A stretch of 64,000 nucleotides of DNA, from contig CAIJPN010000159.1 of assembly GCA_903822545.1 (NCBI GenBank), positions 1 through 64,000 on the forward strand, given 5' to 3'. Source of the stretch: an uncultured Anaerolineae bacterium (lineage in GTDB: Bacteria > Chloroflexota > Anaerolineae > Anaerolineales > Villigracilaceae). Under the pieces are notes generated by a model. It saw nothing but the letters and a program-made list of their open reading frames with translations. It searched no databases and had not been told where the DNA came from. This document shows, piece after piece, positions 36,459 to 43,239 of the stretch (its first letter is position 1; each line of letters starts with the position of its first letter). Both the position numbers and the translations under genes were made by a program.

Positions 36459-38285
36459 ATGTTTGAAAAAGAGCAGGAAATCATTGCAGAGAAAATCCGG
36501 GCATTTTGCGCGGAAAAAGATATTCCGCTGGGTGAGTTGAAGTGGATGCCGATCCCGTTTAGCGGGGAGTGGGGTATTTCTACCTCGTTTTTTGCGACTG
36601 CTGCGGCTGAAGCGAAGGCGGGCAAAAGCAAAGGGATGCCCGTCCCGGTGCGGGCGCAGGAAATTGCTGAGGCTGTGAAAAATGGTATCAGCGTGCTGCC
36701 CGGTATTTCGCGCGGCGAAGCTGTGAAGGGTTACCTGAATTTGTATTTTTCCACTGCGGAAGTGGCGCTCAAAGTGGTCGAATCTGCCCTGTCGGACGGG
36801 ATCCGCTTTGGGGCTGGACATCCCAAAAATGAGCGTGTGATGGTGGAGTATGCCCAGCCGAATACGCATCATTCCTTCCATATTGGGCATTATCGCAATA
36901 CGATTTTGGGCGAGAGCCTGGCGCGGATTGTGCAGTTCGCCGGGTTTGAGACCATCCGGGCCAGTTACCCAGGCGATATTGGGTTGGGTGTTATTACGGT
37001 GCTGTGGGCCTATGAGAAGTTTTACAAAGGCCAGGAACCGGCGGATATTCACGAGCGCGGGCAGTGGCTGTTGAAGATTTACGCCGAGGCGACCAACCGG
37101 CTGGCCGAAAAAGAGAACGAAACCCCTGAAGAGAAGGCCCAGCGCGAGGCCTATGACGCCGAACGGCGCGAGATGTACCGCAAATGGGATGCTGGCGATG
37201 AGTATGTGCGCAAACTGTGGCTGGATACGCGCGAGTGGAGCCTGGATGAGCTGCGCGATATCTTGCACATGATGGATGTTAAGATCGATGTGTGGTTCTT
37301 TGAGAGCGAAGTCGATGAACCGTCTAAGAAGATTGTGGATGAGTTGATTGTGCGTGGGATTGCATCGGATGAGCGCGGTAACGGCGGCCCGGTGATTGTC
37401 AAAATCGATGAGAAGCTGGGGCTGGCAAAGGAAAAATATCGCGTGGCCGTGATCTTGCGTTCGGATGGCACGACGCTGTACCTGACCAAAGACCTGGCCC
37501 TGGCCGAGCAGAAGTTTGATGAGTTCCATGTTGACCGCTCGATTTATGTGGTCGATAACCGCCAGAGTTTGCACTTCCAGCAGGCTTTTAAGATTTTGGA
37601 GCTGTGGGGTTTCAAACAGGCCGAAAAGTGCTACCACCTGGCCTATGGCTTTGTCAGCCTGCCAGAAGGCGCCATGTCGGCGCGCAAGGGGCGCGTGGCG
37701 CTCTTCAAGGAAGTGTACGACGAATCGATTGCGCGTGTGCTGGCGACGATTGCCGAGAAAAACCCGAGCATGCCTGAAAATGAGCGTGTTGGGGTGGCAC
37801 AGAAAATCGGTATGGGCGCGCTGGCCTATTCGATGCTGTCCGTAGACAATAACAAGGATATGATCTTTGATGTCAACGAAGCCTTGAGCTTCGATGGGCA
37901 CACCGGGCCGTACATTCAGAATGCGGTGGTAAGAGCCAATTCGATTTTGAAAAAGGCAGTGGAAAGCGGAAAGTGGAAACTGGAAAGCCAGGAACCAGCC
38001 ACTTATGGTTACCCACTTTCTACTCATGAAATCGAACTCATTGAGCAAATGTCCCGCTTCCCCAACGTGGTGCAGCAAGCGGCCAATGAGTACCGTCCGC
38101 TGGTGGTGGCGGCCTACGCCTATGATCTGGCGACAGCCTTCCACAGCTTTTATCATGCCGTGCCGGTGCTGCAAACAGACGATGAATCTGTCAAATCAGC
38201 ACGCCTGCGGCTGGTTGCAGCGGCGAAACAAGTGATGACCAATGCGCTCTACCTGCTGGGGATCAGCGCACCAGATGTGATGTAA
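36459..38285 (+). CDS. argS: Arginyl-tRNA synthetase
   Basis: 608 aa class I aminoacyl-tRNA synthetase. The N-terminal additional domain (1-~125) is followed by VEYAQPNTHHSFHIGHYRN with the HIGH motif (~139), ASYPGDIGLGV, ILRSDGTTLYLTKDLALA (Arg-site GTxxYxTxD-type) and MSARKG (~405, KMSKS variant). The C-terminal DALR helical domain contains NEYRPLVVAAYAYDLATAFHSFY. A TATAAT (36394-36399) lies in the leader, and GGAAGG before ATG 36459. Near residues 500-512 a heptamer tandem repeat encodes VESGKWKLES in the linker to the anticodon-binding domain. Single-copy essential gene; the family call is secure. Confidence 0.95.
   Translation: MFEKEQEIIAEKIRAFCAEKDIPLGELKWMPIPFSGEWGISTSFFATAAAEAKAGKSKGMPVPVRAQEIAEAVKNGISVLPGISRGEAVKGYLNLYFSTAEVALKVVESALSDGIRFGAGHPKNERVMVEYAQPNTHHSFHIGHYRNTILGESLARIVQFAGFETIRASYPGDIGLGVITVLWAYEKFYKGQEPADIHERGQWLLKIYAEATNRLAEKENETPEEKAQREAYDAERREMYRKWDAGDEYVRKLWLDTREWSLDELRDILHMMDVKIDVWFFESEVDEPSKKIVDELIVRGIASDERGNGGPVIVKIDEKLGLAKEKYRVAVILRSDGTTLYLTKDLALAEQKFDEFHVDRSIYVVDNRQSLHFQQAFKILELWGFKQAEKCYHLAYGFVSLPEGAMSARKGRVALFKEVYDESIARVLATIAEKNPSMPENERVGVAQKIGMGALAYSMLSVDNNKDMIFDVNEALSFDGHTGPYIQNAVVRANSILKKAVESGKWKLESQEPATYGYPLSTHEIELIEQMSRFPNVVQQAANEYRPLVVAAYAYDLATAFHSFYHAVPVLQTDDESVKSARLRLVAAAKQVMTNALYLLGISAPDVM
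37958..37985 (+). repeat. Heptanucleotide tandem repeat inside argS
   Basis: Four adjacent 7-nt units AGTGGAA, AGCGGAA, AGTGGAA, ACTGGAA. One unit is not a multiple of three, so loss or gain of a single copy would shift the argS frame. Confidence 0.7.
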
Positions 38286-38295
38286 TTTTCCTGTG

Positions 38296-38318
38296 GGGGC
38301 GCCACAATACGGCGCCCC
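38296..38318 (+). terminator. Stem-loop after argS
   Basis: GGGGCGCC (38296-38303) and GGCGCCCC (38311-38318), 10 nt after the argS stop. A TT follows but no longer T-run. The flanks TGT/ACA extend the symmetry imperfectly. Confidence 0.6.
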
Positions 38319-38376
38319 TTACAGTTTTCAAGGAAAAAAGTACCACCCAAAACATGACGCTTGTCCAGGGTGGCAA

Positions 38377-38385
38377 TGCTATAAT
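38377..38385 (+). promoter_or_regulatory. Extended -10 promoter of the COG2403-type GTPase gene
   Basis: TGCTATAAT at 38377-38385. Transcription would start near 38392, right at the first helix of the structured leader. Confidence 0.5.
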
Positions 38386-38391
38386 CTTTCC

Positions 38392-38510
38392 GCCTACCGT
38401 TGGCGCTTATGGGCATCACAGCCCCAGAAGTGATGTGACGGCTCCGGCACAGGCCGGGGACGAAAAAACAGCCGAGTTTTTAGCGCGTAGGCCGGGCTTA
38501 AGCCTGGTCC
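38392..38510 (+). promoter_or_regulatory. Candidate structured RNA leader
   Basis: The closing helix GCCTAC/GTAGGC (38392-38397 with 38487-38492) is stacked on GCGCT/AGCGC (38403-38407 with 38482-38486). Inside lie three hairpins: CATCAC/GTGATG (38414-38435), CTCCGGC/GCCGGGG (38442-38459) and AAAAAC/GTTTTT (38464-38481, competing for one base). A further GGCTTAAGCC palindrome (38495-38504) follows. The whole lies between the promoter and the GTPase start. The helix order looks like a multi-branch riboswitch or ribosomal-leader RNA, but I do not match it to a named class. Confidence 0.45.
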
Positions 38511-38557
38511 ACAACGACCCTGCTGAAATTCATCTTTTCTGAATGGAGAAAAACTGC

Positions 38558-39880
38558 ATGTCCCCCATCAAAACCATCATCATGGGAGCCGCTGGCCGCG
38601 ACTTCCACAACTTCAATACCTTTTTCCGCGGGAACAAGGATTATGAAGTCGTAGCTTTTACCGCCACCCAAATCCCCGACATCGAAGGCCGACAGTACCC
38701 CAGGGAACTCGCCGGAGACCTGTATCCCGCCGGGATTCCCATCTATGCCGAGTCTGACCTGCCCGAACTGATTAAAAAACATAACGTAGAACAGGTTGTC
38801 TTTGCCTATTCGGATGTCCCGCACGAATATGTGATGCACAAAGCCTCGCTGGTGAACGCCCTCGGCGCCGATTTCCGTTTAATGGGCACTCATCTCACCC
38901 AGGTCAAATCCACCAAACCGGTGGTTTCCGTTTGTGCGGTTCGCACCGGCTCGGGGAAAAGCCAGACCACCCGCCGCGTCTCGCTGATCTTGCGTGAGAT
39001 GGGCTACAAAGTTGCTGCTATCCGCCACCCGATGCCTTACGGCAACCTTGTCCGCCAGGAAGTGCAACGTTTCGCCGATTACGGCGACCTGGATGAGCAC
39101 GAATGTACCATCGAAGAGCGCGAAGAGTACGAACCCCACATTGATAACGGCGTCATCGTTTATGCTGGCGTTGATTACGAGAAAATCCTGCGTGCTGCCG
39201 AGAAGGAAGTCGACATCATCCTGTGGGATGGCGGAAACAATGACTTCCCCTTCTACGTTTCAGACCTGCAAATCGTCGTCGCTGACCCGCATCGCGCTGG
39301 TCACGAGAGCACGTACCACCCTGGCGAGACCAACGTTCGCGCTGCGGATGTGTTCGTCATCAACAAGGTGGATACTGCCGACCCGGAGAAGGTCATTGCG
39401 GTGCGCGAGAACCTGCGCAAGCTGAATCCGAATGCGATCGTGATCGAAGGCGCCTCCCCGCTGTTTGTGGATGACCCGGCGGCCATCCAGGGCAAACGTG
39501 TGCTGGTTGTCGAGGATGGGCCCACGCTCACACACGGCGAGATGGCTTACGGGGCGGGATATGTCGCGGCGAGAAGATTCGGCGCGAAAGAAATCGTCGA
39601 CCCGCGCCCATTCGCAGTGAAATCCATCGCTGATACTTACGCCAAATACCCCAAAACTGGCCCGATCCTGCCAGCGATGGGCTACGGCGAAGCGCAGATG
39701 AAGGACCTTGAGGCCACCATCGCAGCAGCGGATGTGGATATGGTCGTCATTGGCACACCAATTGACCTGACGCGCGTCATCAAGATTGACAAGCCGCACC
39801 AGCGTGTGCGCTATGAACTCCAGGAAATTGGCCAGCCAACACTGGAAGACATCCTGAAGCAGAAATTTGGGAAGAAGTAA
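38558..39880 (+). CDS. Cyclic 2,3-diphosphoglycerate synthetase-like GTPase (COG2403)
   Basis: 440 aa from ATG 38558, which has GGAG 9 nt upstream. The N-terminal Rossmann-like domain (IIMGAAGRDFHNFNTFFRG, VAFTATQIPDIEGRQYP) precedes a P-loop: VCAVRTGSGKSQTTRRVSLI (~132). The GTPase-like NKxD is in VFVINKVDTADPE, and DIILWDGGNNDFPFY is Walker-B-like. The family includes archaeal cyclic 2,3-diphosphoglycerate synthetase and many bacterial relatives of unknown role. In a bacterium the product may differ. It is monocistronic behind a 165-nt structured leader, with a convergent terminator after it. Confidence 0.8.
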   Translation: MSPIKTIIMGAAGRDFHNFNTFFRGNKDYEVVAFTATQIPDIEGRQYPRELAGDLYPAGIPIYAESDLPELIKKHNVEQVVFAYSDVPHEYVMHKASLVNALGADFRLMGTHLTQVKSTKPVVSVCAVRTGSGKSQTTRRVSLILREMGYKVAAIRHPMPYGNLVRQEVQRFADYGDLDEHECTIEEREEYEPHIDNGVIVYAGVDYEKILRAAEKEVDIILWDGGNNDFPFYVSDLQIVVADPHRAGHESTYHPGETNVRAADVFVINKVDTADPEKVIAVRENLRKLNPNAIVIEGASPLFVDDPAAIQGKRVLVVEDGPTLTHGEMAYGAGYVAARRFGAKEIVDPRPFAVKSIADTYAKYPKTGPILPAMGYGEAQMKDLEATIAAADVDMVVIGTPIDLTRVIKIDKPHQRVRYELQEIGQPTLEDILKQKFGKK

Positions 39881-40010: not shown

Positions 40011-40430
40011 CTACTCACCGATAATTTTGACCAACACCCTTTTTTGGCGGCGTCCATCGAATTCGCCATAAAAGATCTGCTCCCAGGGGCCAAAATCCAG
40101 TTCCCCCTTTGTGACTGCCACCACCACTTCGCGTCCCATGATCTGGCGTTTTAAATGCGCATCGGCATTATCTTCCCCTGTGCGATTATGCCAATATTGA
40201 CCGATTGGCTCATGCGGAGCAAGTTGTTCGAGCCAGGTATCATAATCATGGTGCAAGCCAGATTCGTCATCGTTGATAAAAACCGAGGCGGTTATGTGCA
40301 TGGCTGAAATAAGCGCCAGGCCTTCTTGAATATTACTTTCGCGAAGGCAAGATTCAACCTGGGAAGTGATATTTACAAAGCCGCGTCTCGCGGGAATGTT
40401 AAACCAGAGTTCTTTACGAAACGATTTCAT
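40011..40430 (-). CDS. yjbQ: YjbQ family protein (UPF0047)
   Basis: 139 aa single-domain protein of the YjbQ/TIGR00149 family. Conserved segments are [18 protein letters not shown], then [19 protein letters not shown] (metal-binding His) and [16 protein letters not shown]. Some members show a weak thiamine-phosphate synthase activity and rescue thiE mutants, so it is sometimes called a secondary thiamine-phosphate synthase; the true role is unclear. Its nearness to the thiamine module at 41-43 kb may be coincidence. Monocistronic. Confidence 0.88.
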
Positions 40431-40852: not shown

Positions 40853-41248
40853 ATGCGCCTAACTGAAAAAGTGATCCATTTTGCGCAAATCTTGGCTGCT
40901 ATTGTCTTGGGAACAGCGTATTTCCTGCCGTTATATGAAACTTATGGGATTCTCGGCGGGGTCAAGTATGCCAAGGGGGAGGCCTGGTTATTTTTCTGGG
41001 CAATACCGGCGGCCACCGCGATCTATTTCATCTCGCATCGCTGGCTGAGGCTGGCGGCCTGCATCCTTTCATCCCTGGGCGGGGTAATGGCCCTGGGATT
41101 GCTCTACTTCCTGGCAAATTTCAAGGCAACACCGCTTGGCGGATTCTTCCTCGCGCAAATGTCCATTTTTGTGCTGATTCTTTGCTGGCTTGCCATCGGC
41201 GTTATCGAGATTCGCCGAAAAACCAGAAACCAGATCGCGCCGGGTTAG
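40853..41248 (+). CDS. Small four-helix membrane protein, function unknown
   Basis: 131 aa from ATG 40853, chosen because AAGGA lies 6 nt upstream. Four hydrophobic segments: VIHFAQILAAIVLGTAYFLP, AWLFFWAIPAATAIYFI, LAACILSSLGGVMALGLLYF and FFLAQMSIFVLILCWLAIGV. A basic tail follows (RRKTRNQ). No family recognised. Its stop overlaps the stop of the converging ThiB-like gene by 3 nt, so no terminator separates them. Confidence 0.65.
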   Translation: MRLTEKVIHFAQILAAIVLGTAYFLPLYETYGILGGVKYAKGEAWLFFWAIPAATAIYFISHRWLRLAACILSSLGGVMALGLLYFLANFKATPLGGFFLAQMSIFVLILCWLAIGVIEIRRKTRNQIAPG

Positions 41249-42294
41249 CGCAGGATGGCTTCCATCCAGGCGTTGATCCATTTTTCGCGCACATCGGCCA
41301 GGTTATAGGGGGCGGTCACTGGTTTTTCGGCGGTGGCGGCGTATTTGGTGAACACTTCGGGCAGTTTGGCGGCGGGGTTGACCGGGTAGACGAACATATT
41401 CAGCGGCATATCGGCCTGGAAATCGGTGGAAAGCATAAAGTCGATGAATTTCTCTGCCAGGGCGCGGTTTTTCGTCCCTTGCAGGATGCCGACAAACTCA
41501 ATTTGGCGGAAGCAGGTTCCGGGGGCGATCACAGATGCGGTGGGCGAATCATCCAGCGGCGCGCTGGCAAACACCACCTCGGCAGCCGGGCTGGAAGCGT
41601 AGGAAACCACCATCGGCTGGGGGCCTTTTCCGCTGGAGGCGCTGAAATTGGTGTAGTAGGCCGTTTCCCAGCCATCCACAATCACCACACCGTTATCCTT
41701 GAGCGCCTTCCAGTAGTCGAGATAGCCGGGGTTGCCATATTTGGCGATGCTGGCGATCAGGAAGGCCAACCCGGGGGAGGATGTGGCCGGATTCTCGACC
41801 ACGAGCAGGTTCTTGTACTCGGGTTTGGTCAAATCATCCAGGCTTTGCGGCACTGCCAGGGATTTTTCCGCGAACCAGGCTTTGTCGTAGTTGATGCAGA
41901 CATCGCCGTAATCGACCGGCAGGGCGCGGTTGTCGGCATCCAGCTTGAACTCTGCCGGGATGGAAGCGAGCGCCGGGGCATTGTACGGCTCGAAAATCTC
42001 CGCTTCCAGCGCGCGGGACAGGAAGGTGTTATCTACGCCGTAGAAAACATCGGCCAGCGGGGCGTCTTTGCTCAGGATGGCCTTGTTCAGCGCCGCGCCA
42101 GCATCCCCGCTTTTGACAAAACTGATTTTGACGTTGTTGGCAGCTTCAAATGCGGCTATGACGGCTTCGCTGGCGGCGAAAGAGTCGTGGGTCATCACGG
42201 TCAGGGTTGCGGGCGCTTCTGTGACGGCGGGGGTTGGGGCCGCGCAAGCCGCCAGCAGCAAGGCCAGGATGAGCAGGGGGGAAAGGGGTTTCAT
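41245..42294 (-). CDS. thiB: Thiamine ABC transporter substrate-binding lipoprotein (ThiB/TbpA-like)
   Basis: 349 aa. The start at ATG 42294 (MKPLSPLLILALLLAAC) is chosen because GGAG lies 6 nt upstream; upstream in-frame Mets exist. The lipobox LLAAC is followed by LTVMTHDSFAASEAVIAAFE, DVFYGVDNTFLSRAL, ALPVDYGDVCINYDKAWF and VVSYASSPAAEV, which are typical of the thiamine-binding group of iron(III)/thiamine-type receptors. It lies 32 nt after thiamine pyrophosphokinase and downstream of a TPP riboswitch, which supports thiamine as ligand. The permease (ThiP) and ATPase (ThiQ) are not in the window. Confidence 0.85.
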   Translation of the reverse strand: MKPLSPLLILALLLAACAAPTPAVTEAPATLTVMTHDSFAASEAVIAAFEAANNVKISFVKSGDAGAALNKAILSKDAPLADVFYGVDNTFLSRALEAEIFEPYNAPALASIPAEFKLDADNRALPVDYGDVCINYDKAWFAEKSLAVPQSLDDLTKPEYKNLLVVENPATSSPGLAFLIASIAKYGNPGYLDYWKALKDNGVVIVDGWETAYYTNFSASSGKGPQPMVVSYASSPAAEVVFASAPLDDSPTASVIAPGTCFRQIEFVGILQGTKNRALAEKFIDFMLSTDFQADMPLNMFVYPVNPAAKLPEVFTKYAATAEKPVTAPYNLADVREKWINAWMEAILR

Positions 42295-42318
42295 TTTCAT
42301 CTCCATTGGTAAACCGTG

Positions 42319-42340
42319 CAACAAATCTATAGATTTGTTG
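42319..42340 (-). repeat. Palindrome over the thiamine pyrophosphokinase stop codon
   Basis: A 22-bp perfect palindrome with CAACAAATC and GATTTGTTG arms around TATA. The TAG stop of the upstream gene lies within it. It probably forms a hairpin between the two thiamine genes. Confidence 0.6.
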
Positions 42341-42974
42341 TACGCAGGTGGGTGCACAGCAAAAGTCCGCGCTGGATGGTGACGCTGGCGGTTTCTGCCT
42401 GCATCACATTGCTGATTCCTCGCGTGCGGTGCGGATAAAGCGTCTCGCCGCGCAGGGGATAGGACAGATTTTCGGTGACAATGCCCTCGACCGGCTGCCC
42501 CAGCGGGATCAACGAAACGGTGTCTCCCGGCTGGCCGTGGATTTCTCCGCGCTGGCGGATGAGGAAGGCTTCGGTCAGGCCATCGTCGAGGCGGATATCG
42601 ACATCTTCCAGGGCCGGGTCTGCCAGCAGCCAGAGATTGCCAAGCTGCTGGTCGAGCCGCCCGCCGAGCGCGCCCAGCAGGATGATGGGTGAAAACTGCG
42701 CGGCCAGGGCATAATCCAGGGCCAGTTCCAGGTCGGTTTCATCTTTTTCGGGTGGGAAGCGCAAGATTTTGACGCCGCCTGCTGCGTAGCGGGAAACTGC
42801 CTCAGCCGAGACAGAGTCCAGATCGCCGATGAGCACATGCAGGGCGGCCCCAAGCGCGTCCGCATGGCGCGCGCCGCCATCCGCCGCGATGTAAACATCC
42901 CCGGCGCGCAGCAATCTCCGGGCGGCGCTCAAATCTGGAAGGTAACCGTTGACGAAGATGATGGCGCGAGGCAT
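42327..42974 (-). CDS. Thiamine pyrophosphokinase (thiamine diphosphokinase)
   Basis: 215 aa enzyme converting thiamine plus ATP to thiamine diphosphate. Conserved motifs are VYIAADGGARHADALG, VLIGDLDSVS (the GDxDS signature), RFPPEKDETDLELALDYAL (KDxTD catalytic) and LLGALGGRLDQQLGNLWLL. The C-terminal half holds the thiamine-binding barrel (GDTVSLIPLGQPVEGIVTENLSYPL, split by strands) and ends near RGISNVM and ASVTIQRGLLL. Start ATG 42974; its Shine-Dalgarno GAGGGAG lies at the edge of the palindromic repeat 42980-43062. It is under a TPP riboswitch and precedes the ThiB-like receptor. Confidence 0.92.
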   Translation of the reverse strand: MPRAIIFVNGYLPDLSAARRLLRAGDVYIAADGGARHADALGAALHVLIGDLDSVSAEAVSRYAAGGVKILRFPPEKDETDLELALDYALAAQFSPIILLGALGGRLDQQLGNLWLLADPALEDVDIRLDDGLTEAFLIRQRGEIHGQPGDTVSLIPLGQPVEGIVTENLSYPLRGETLYPHRTRGISNVMQAETASVTIQRGLLLCTHLRTTNL

Positions 42975-43064: not shown

Positions 43065-43094
43065 ATAAAAAACATCCTCCAGCGGAGGATGTTT
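43065..43094 (-). terminator. Riboswitch-controlled terminator
   Basis: On the minus strand AAACATCCTCC (43094-43084) pairs with GGAGGATGTTT (43080-43070), followed by TTTTAT. It lies 14 nt after the TPP aptamer, where it can switch off the thiamine operon when TPP is bound. Confidence 0.85.
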
Positions 43095-43107
43095 GGTGTG
43101 AGCAGGA

Positions 43108-43192
43108 AATCCCTCCGCCGGTACGAACCGGATCAGGTTCAGCGGGTCGAGCGATTACGCTCCTCTCAGCCTGTCGGGCAGGCTCCCCGTTC
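43108..43192 (-). promoter_or_regulatory. TPP riboswitch (THI element)
   Basis: Read on the minus strand, the conserved blocks appear in order: GGGGAGCC (43188-43181), GGCTGAGAGGA (43171-43161), GACCC, TGAACCTGATC (43141-43131) and GGCGGAGGGA (43119-43110). These are the P2-P4 core sequences of the thiamine pyrophosphate aptamer. Followed by an intrinsic terminator, so control is transcriptional and negative. Regulates thiamine pyrophosphokinase and the ThiB-like receptor. Confidence 0.95.
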
Positions 43193-43239
43193 AATTGGTG
43201 GCAGTATACGCCGCGCAGGGGGGCGTGTCAAGTCAAAAA

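Follow-up and report, generated by a model that had tools for sequence, protein, structure and literature searches.

Closest described systems

The preQ1-II fold is a translation-controlling pseudoknot with an inner hairpin. The leader RNA analysed here, which we call type A, is likewise predicted to form a pseudoknot that carries a hairpin and ends beside the ribosome-binding site of one gene. It differs from preQ1-II in having no Rfam match, a larger variable insert and a core shared with the coding end of the neighbouring gene. The yjdF motif (PMC4793209) is a conserved leader found almost exclusively before one gene of unclear function, as is type A; unlike the yjdF motif, type A was seen in our searches in one Chloroflexota family only, and its core overlaps the coding sequence on its 5′ side. 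The gene behind the type-A leader encodes a P-loop GTPase with a distant relative in the archaeal cyclic 2,3-diphosphoglycerate synthetase (PDB 9sxb). According to one paper (PMC10690619) the archaeal enzyme makes an osmolyte, whereas the bacterial GTPase gene stands among arginine genes. Neither the type-A element nor a natural arginine-pathway riboswitch was found among the matches listed from open-licence papers, which were available as partial text. Our main reading, to which we give a probability of about 0.5, is that type A is a conserved leader of the GTPase mRNA, acting in cis on its translation.

Gene order and limits of the leader

The window (the whole stretch of DNA analysed, 64,000 nt) carries the locus on its plus strand. 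The gene argS for arginyl-tRNA synthetase (36459-38285; TIGR00456, E 1.5e-119) ends with a stop codon at 38283-38285 and is followed by a spacer (38286-38376) and by an extended -10 element, TGCTATAAT, read from the sequence at 38377-38385 and proposed as the leader promoter. The COG2403-like P-loop GTPase gene follows at 38558-39880, an open reading frame whose likely start is the ATG at 38558; a second in-frame ATG lies at 38543, and a Shine-Dalgarno sequence, GGAG (38545-38548), is located 9 nt 5′ of the start codon. The preliminary description had placed a leader RNA between the extended -10 and the start codon, and this placement was confirmed. Because the extended -10 is at 38377-38385, transcription probably starts near 38392. 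A consensus scanner called no plus-strand sigma-70 promoter near 38377-38385, its -35 rule being unmet, and a terminator scan of 38200-38620 was empty. The 3′ limit was set too early at 38510: helix S2 (see below) lies partly outside 38392-38510, and the element appears to run to about 38541.

A G+C-rich inverted repeat, GGGGCGCC/GGCGCCCC, is found right behind argS at about 38296-38325 and was not called a terminator by the scanner; it possibly separates argS from the leader promoter. On the other side of the GTPase gene, a YjbQ gene (40011-40430) is convergent to it.

Covariance models of Rfam 15, run at gathering cut-offs over the whole window, found a TPP riboswitch alone and nothing on the leader. 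The TPP riboswitch lies on the minus strand (43093-43199, 72.3 bits), near a thiamine ABC transporter substrate-binding gene (41245-42357) on the same strand. With 4227 Rfam families and E up to 10, the region 38250-38600 gave three sub-threshold matches, none convincing, the best of which (17.9 bits against a cut-off of 41) was on the minus strand ahead of the leader. The same search of 18 type-A loci at E up to 0.5 gave one unrelated sub-threshold match. Assignment to a known riboswitch class was rejected, no Rfam family fitting, in agreement with the preliminary description, which could name none. A T-box leader was also rejected, as the Rfam searches gave no T-box match and the terminator scan was empty. 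The type-A leader is an uncatalogued folded RNA, absent from Rfam 15.

Leader types and their distribution

At E up to 1e-80, 117 of the 152 genomes of the same family contain the GTPase; of 301 phylum genomes sampled, 54 have it at E up to 1e-40. We read 110 GTPase upstream regions, that of the window and those of 109 further loci. Loci (L) and genomes (G) carry our own numbers; the 110 regions are not 110 genomes, since G039 is counted twice and L104 is a relative of 63% identity. By pattern and by eye, 25 regions have a type-A leader, 55 have a second type, type B, and 30 have neither. For type A, 24 regions came from a first pattern and L053 from a second; for type B, the first pattern count gave 52 and a later count 55. 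L061, which has the argS end alone, was placed among the 30 and left out of all type-A counts. GTPase places at contig edges or in fragments are mostly outside the upstream sample; the exceptions are four loci (L113, L125, L133 and L141) added through the core pattern described below, which bring the type-A set to 29 leaders. All compared sequences are related, and the shuffles reported below therefore overstate significance.

The preliminary description had proposed looking for a covarying leader before orthologous genes. A conserved leader with covarying helices was indeed found, but it is not universal, type A standing before 25 of the 110 genes; the 30 regions with neither leader count against the main reading. 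In several of these (L037, L050, L061, L073, L080, L107), the gap between argS and the GTPase gene often contains short repeats seen by eye, such as TGACACTGGAACAC units.

R2, a model built on the 5′ domain of type A, gave 30 places of at least 59 bits in 29 of the 152 family genomes, 28 of them located 19-344 nt 5′ of a GTPase place. The remaining two are both in G033: one precedes a GTPase start truncated by the contig end, the other is found at argS. In total, 29 of the 30 strong matches belong to a GTPase leader and are on the same strand. A further 10 places scored below 59 bits. Among 346 genomes of the class, R2 matched 20 at E up to 0.1; the window is one of them, and the next best reached 35.6 bits. 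Some of these weak matches are argS ends by their position. In the searches made, type A was seen in one Chloroflexota family only.

This one-gene distribution, with strong matches once per genome at the GTPase gene, also fits autoregulation or another protein response, in which the GTPase, ArgRS or some other protein would bind the pseudoknot and block or free the ribosome-binding site, with no small ligand involved. It would suit such a control that argS is the commonest 5′ neighbour (61 of 110 regions by a crude motif rule) and that 14 leaders have a core overlapping the argS 3′ end. On the other hand, types A and B are two unrelated folds before GTPases mostly 79-95% identical to that of the window, for which convergent sensing of a metabolite is a better explanation than one protein recognising both. 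We regard control by a protein as possible, though well behind the main reading.

A core shared with the 3′ end of argS

The 25-nt core, GGGCATCACAGCCCCAGAAGTGATG, occupies 38411-38435 of the plus strand in the window. A pattern search of the family genomes allowing up to 2 mismatches found it at 30 places in 29 of 152 genomes, 29 copies being exact and one having a single mismatch; a reversed-pattern control gave 0 among the matches listed. In a wider contig collection, whose scan possibly did not include the window's own record, the exact core is present on 27 contigs, 26 of them labelled Anaerolineae, Anaerolineales, Anaerolinea, Chloroflexi or Chloroflexota and one Ca. Desulfolinea nitratireducens, which we take to be a chloroflexote. 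A viral collection gave 0 matches.

In 14 of the 29 leaders, termed attached, the 3′ end of argS itself serves as the core, coding for GITAPEVM (GITAPEAM in L053) followed by the UGA stop. In the other 15, termed detached and including that of the window, it is a separate non-coding copy, and all 15 copies are exact. In five leaders (the window, L003, L010, L068 and L076) the detached core could be traced to lie 45-168 nt 3′ of the true end of argS. In the window, the end of argS proper codes for GISAPDVM and matches the core at 21 of 27 nt, and the 52 other argS ends compared agree with the 27-nt core at 15-24 positions; the list of argS-like ends outside the attached set has 54 entries, two of them (L004, L019) being detached copies let through by the open-frame filter. 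Three of the 52 (L061, L080 and L105) encode the same peptide with other codons. Among the attached ends, 12 match at 26 or 27 of 27 positions, and those of L113 and L133 are exact. The peptide and its codons thus fail to explain the exact core, and we therefore attribute it to the RNA; the identity of the detached, non-coding cores likewise indicates that selection acts on the RNA.

A TATAAT sequence was found 15-29 nt 5′ of helix S1 in 10 of the 15 detached leaders versus 0 of the 14 attached ones, and nine of these ten have the form TGnTATAAT; the detached leaders without it are L007, L068, L076, L096 and L141. A leader peptide, MGITAPEVM, was considered and rejected: an ATG or TTG is present, and by eye the printed detached copies have no Shine-Dalgarno sequence.

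In attached leaders, ribosomes finishing argS translation would unfold the core, which makes coupling an additional possibility there. As a full explanation, translational coupling would require ribosomes that terminate within the core, at the argS stop, to unfold H1, H2 and S1 and so tie the GTPase to argS translation, the detached copies being relics that still serve as structured 5′ UTR. The argS UGA at the core end in 14 of 29 leaders agrees with this, but the other 15 are detached with an unchanged core, and 10 of them have their own TATAAT. Coupling alone would not preserve the exact core in detached copies, and we consider it unlikely as the whole account.

Genome G033 (contig JACNJN010000139.1, labelled Ca. 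Desulfolinea nitratireducens; L114 and L141) has two exact cores about 1.9 kb apart, flanking an insert between argS and the GTPase leader. By eye, the insert holds a membrane-protein-like gene, and no recombinase was recognised in the frames printed. Such a repeat would be expected if the core acted at the DNA level, as a site in the argS 3′ end that is used for recombination or integration and is copied upon insertion behind argS. This explanation is very improbable in view of the lack of a recognisable recombinase in those frames, the location of 29 of 30 copies at a GTPase leader with none in the viral collection, and the covariation of S2 and H2, and of S1 in one lineage, described below. 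A mobile-element site was likewise a weak candidate, the repeat pair being seen in G033 only, with 0 viral matches.

Conserved helices and the pseudoknot

The preliminary description had drawn a nested multibranch fold, in which a closing helix and a stacked inner helix enclose three hairpins. The middle hairpin, H2 (38439-38462, plus strand, closed by CG...CG), is retained in relatives: in 28 distinct sequences, 6 of its 9 pairs are changed on both sides. A separate count over 29 leaders found 215 of 232 cells paired and 39 doubly changed, which was reached by 0 of 2000 strand shuffles. Taken together with H1, a candidate hairpin inside the core (38414-38419/38430-38435), it has 46 doubly changed cells versus 15.6 in shuffles (0 of 500) and a covariation score of 0.299 versus 0.097 (0 of 500), although 81 of 500 shuffles equal it in the plain number of doubly changed pairs (6).

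Helix S1 corresponds to the stacked inner helix. Its 5′ strand is GGCGCUU (38402-38408), of which 38403-38407 pairs with the 3′ strand AGCGC (38482-38486; AAGCGC in relatives). S1 was found in 27 of 29 leaders with 181 of 189 cells paired, a count that is biased, as are its shuffles, because whatever matched best within a search interval was taken as the 3′ strand. In genus g7 both strands have changed, from GGCGCUU/AAGCGC to GGUGCUA/UAGCAC (L068 and L076, with the same partner in L141); these compensatory changes, C-G to U-A and U-A to A-U, are confined to one lineage. L141 was probably given a wrong S1 partner in the cell count, a GTAGCAC further 3′ lying in a better loop. Among 27 leaders, 24 display the S1 3′ strand in a hairpin loop closed by 4 bp or more, versus 480 of 1040 random positions, a contrast somewhat flattered because the best of several candidate sites was set against single random positions.

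Helix S2 is formed in relatives by UCAnnnn pairing with nnnUGA; in the window it is short, CAGC (38469-38472) pairing with GCUG (38522-38525), which is followed by AAAUU, and 5 of 7 cells pair. Its strands were anchored by their UCA and UGA ends, independently of pairing, and were counted by these fixed anchors because alignment A3, made with MAFFT and without L007, L053, L096 and the long L068, has S2 in the wrong place in several rows. After L007 and L053 were dropped from the S1 and S2 counts, and L096, L058 and L068, in which the anchors were not found, from that of S2 also, 24 leaders remained. They have 148 of 168 cells paired, against a mean of 129.6 in strand shuffles (0 of 2000 as good), and 24 cells doubly changed.

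The S1 5′ strand precedes both H2 and S2, whereas the partner of this strand is enclosed by the strands of S2, which makes the fold a loop-mediated pseudoknot. Comparison of the relatives thus shows a conserved leader with a pseudoknot before the ribosome-binding site, in which S2 and H2 covary and S1 does so in one lineage, as expected of a structured cis-regulatory leader. The earlier proposal of a regulatory leader RNA is well supported by the core conservation and the covarying helices. Its nested fold is rejected, because S1 crosses S2 and just S1 and H2 of that fold are kept: the third hairpin was not seen in relatives, and the outermost closing helix (38392-38397/38487-38492) was found by eye in the window alone and partly in L010.

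Folded alone, 38392-38510 has an energy of -48.5 kcal/mol (z -1.87, with 8 of 200 shuffles equal or better), which is modestly above chance and suggestive only. A z of this size and the 30 of 110 regions without such a leader could also mean inherited sequence with chance folds and no regulatory function. With a core conserved without coding need and with S2 and H2 covarying beyond shuffles, this is the least credible of the explanations considered.

H1 and a possible long-range pairing

A near-invariant sequence, CAUCUUUUCUG (38531-38541), is located directly 5′ of the ribosome-binding site and is present in most full-length type-A leaders. It is complementary at 10 of 11 positions to the 3′ half of the core, CAGAAGUGAUG (38425-38435). 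This allows an alternative to H1, consisting of a GGGC/GCCC hairpin together with long-range pairing of 38425-38435 with 38531-38541. H1 is invariant in type-A leaders except for one unpaired cell, and covariation neither supports nor opposes it; both pairings escape the covariation test because the core hardly varies.

A duplex energy of -8.9 kcal/mol was reached by 23 of 29 type-A leaders and 8 of 85 other upstream regions, and in a control 181 of 2000 random window stretches reached -9. In 25 of 26 full-length leaders, 3 to 43 of 200 shuffles paired as well; the figure for L058 was 98 of 200, a fixed cut having removed part of its motif. L007, L053 and L096, which are without the CAUCUUUUCUG motif, gave 155, 166 and 117 of 200. 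By pair-probability folding, which cannot represent a pseudoknot, the long-range pairing has a probability of 0.69 to 0.996 in L004, L006, L010, L036, L064, L068 and L141 and of 0.02 in the window, and H1 one of at most 0.06 in all 26 full-length leaders, 0.71 in L007 and 0.99 in L096. As for the two states expected of a riboswitch, the alternative pairing is visible by eye and weak against shuffles, and H1 is improbable in nested folding. Because shuffles often pair equally well, we retain the pairing of 38425-38435 with 38531-38541 as a purely tentative one.

The GTPase and its arginine neighbourhood

The window GTPase has 440 residues. It matches a CobW domain over 64 residues (E 9.7e-6, above the Pfam cut-off) and PDB 9sxb weakly over residues 208-322 (E 8.5e-4), and no NCBIfam family matched at E up to 0.001. 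The COG2403 label was taken over from the preliminary description and does not come from a COG comparison.

The crude motif rule that gave argS as the 5′ neighbour in 61 of 110 regions gave an ADI-like gene in 11 and left 38 unassigned, some of which are argS by eye and some too distant for the 600 nt. An ADI-superfamily protein was found in 25 of the 152 family genomes, 21 of which also have the GTPase and four of which have no GTPase at the cut-off. In all 21 genomes with both, the ADI-superfamily gene lies 98-5360 nt 5′ of the GTPase on the same contig and strand, in 10 of them less than 400 nt away. Among the proteins scanned, arginine deiminase proper was found once (L098, partial), as was ornithine carbamoyltransferase (L104, partial). 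Carbamate kinase directly follows the GTPase in at least 3 of 20 distant loci, a lower bound since several ORF calls missed the GTPase frame. The gene neighbourhood in relatives points to arginine catabolism. Against this link, the window's genome has no match to arginine deiminase TIGR01078 (arcA) or to the ADI-like protein.

Proposed mode of action

Translational control is inferred because the leader ends directly before the ribosome-binding site and no terminator was found in 38200-38620; the leader would thus govern initiation of GTPase translation. The core half CAGAAGUGAUG could pair either within the core, as H1, or with CAUCUUUUCUG beside the ribosome-binding site, and this dual pairing could explain its lack of variation. 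A ligand bound at the junction of S1, S2 and H2 might then favour one of the two states, and type A is possibly a riboswitch with a ligand from the arginine pathway. The most likely effector would be a metabolite of arginine breakdown (arginine, citrulline, ornithine or carbamoyl phosphate), favoured because the GTPase travels with ADI-like genes and, singly, with carbamoyltransferase or carbamate kinase genes. For the phosphoglycerate, GTP or metal ion ligands named in the preliminary description, we found no evidence in the GTPase homology or the neighbourhood. If the main reading is true, an uncatalogued class is added to the regulatory RNAs, its effector offers a way to learn what an uncharacterised bacterial GTPase does, and a regulatory RNA core is common to the coding end of an adjacent gene and kept base for base once non-coding.

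The type-B leader

Type B is a second, unrelated covarying leader before the same GTPase gene, exemplified by L032:500-594 (+), L060:132-226 (-) and L099:132-226 (-). In 55 leaders (54 distinct), 18 of its 25 pairs are doubly changed, and 0 of 500 shuffles equalled either this count or the covariation score. At E up to 1e-6 a type-B model, R1, found 61 places, spread over 60 of the 152 genomes. Of these places, 59 end within 9 nt of a GTPase place; the outliers are in G071, on a contig without a scored GTPase, and elsewhere in G021. Of the 301 phylum genomes, R1 matched 10 at E up to 0.01, and eight of these belong to the family. The window's genome has no R1 match, and no Rfam match covered the type-B leader in 10 loci.

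Type B resembles type A in its gene, its position, its covariation and its nearly always single strong copy per genome. It differs in sequence and in fold, with helices P1, P2 and a small P3, and in its resemblance to an interspersed palindromic repeat. Two unrelated leaders at one gene would fit convergent sensing of one metabolite. Types A and B might be two riboswitch classes for the same arginine-pathway metabolite, type A derived from the coding 3′ end of argS, which would have been duplicated and then freed from coding with its bases staying fixed, and type B derived from a palindromic repeat; we consider this extended scheme doubtful.

The palindromic repeat, CTGAGCGNAGCGAAGNGTCTC, was observed around position 1500 in L203, L204 and L205 and in genomes G012, G045, G098, G132 and G136. 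By eye, these three are among five weak R1 matches elsewhere and have the same arms as type B; L201 lies in a different repeat array and L202 is a hairpin. Allowing up to 2 mismatches, five type-B genomes have 13, 36, 18, 6 and 3 copies of the repeat (the 36 including the type-B leader), and two type-A genomes, G000 and the 62% complete G066, have 0. Because of the shared arms and this distribution of copies, type B may be a domesticated interspersed palindromic repeat.
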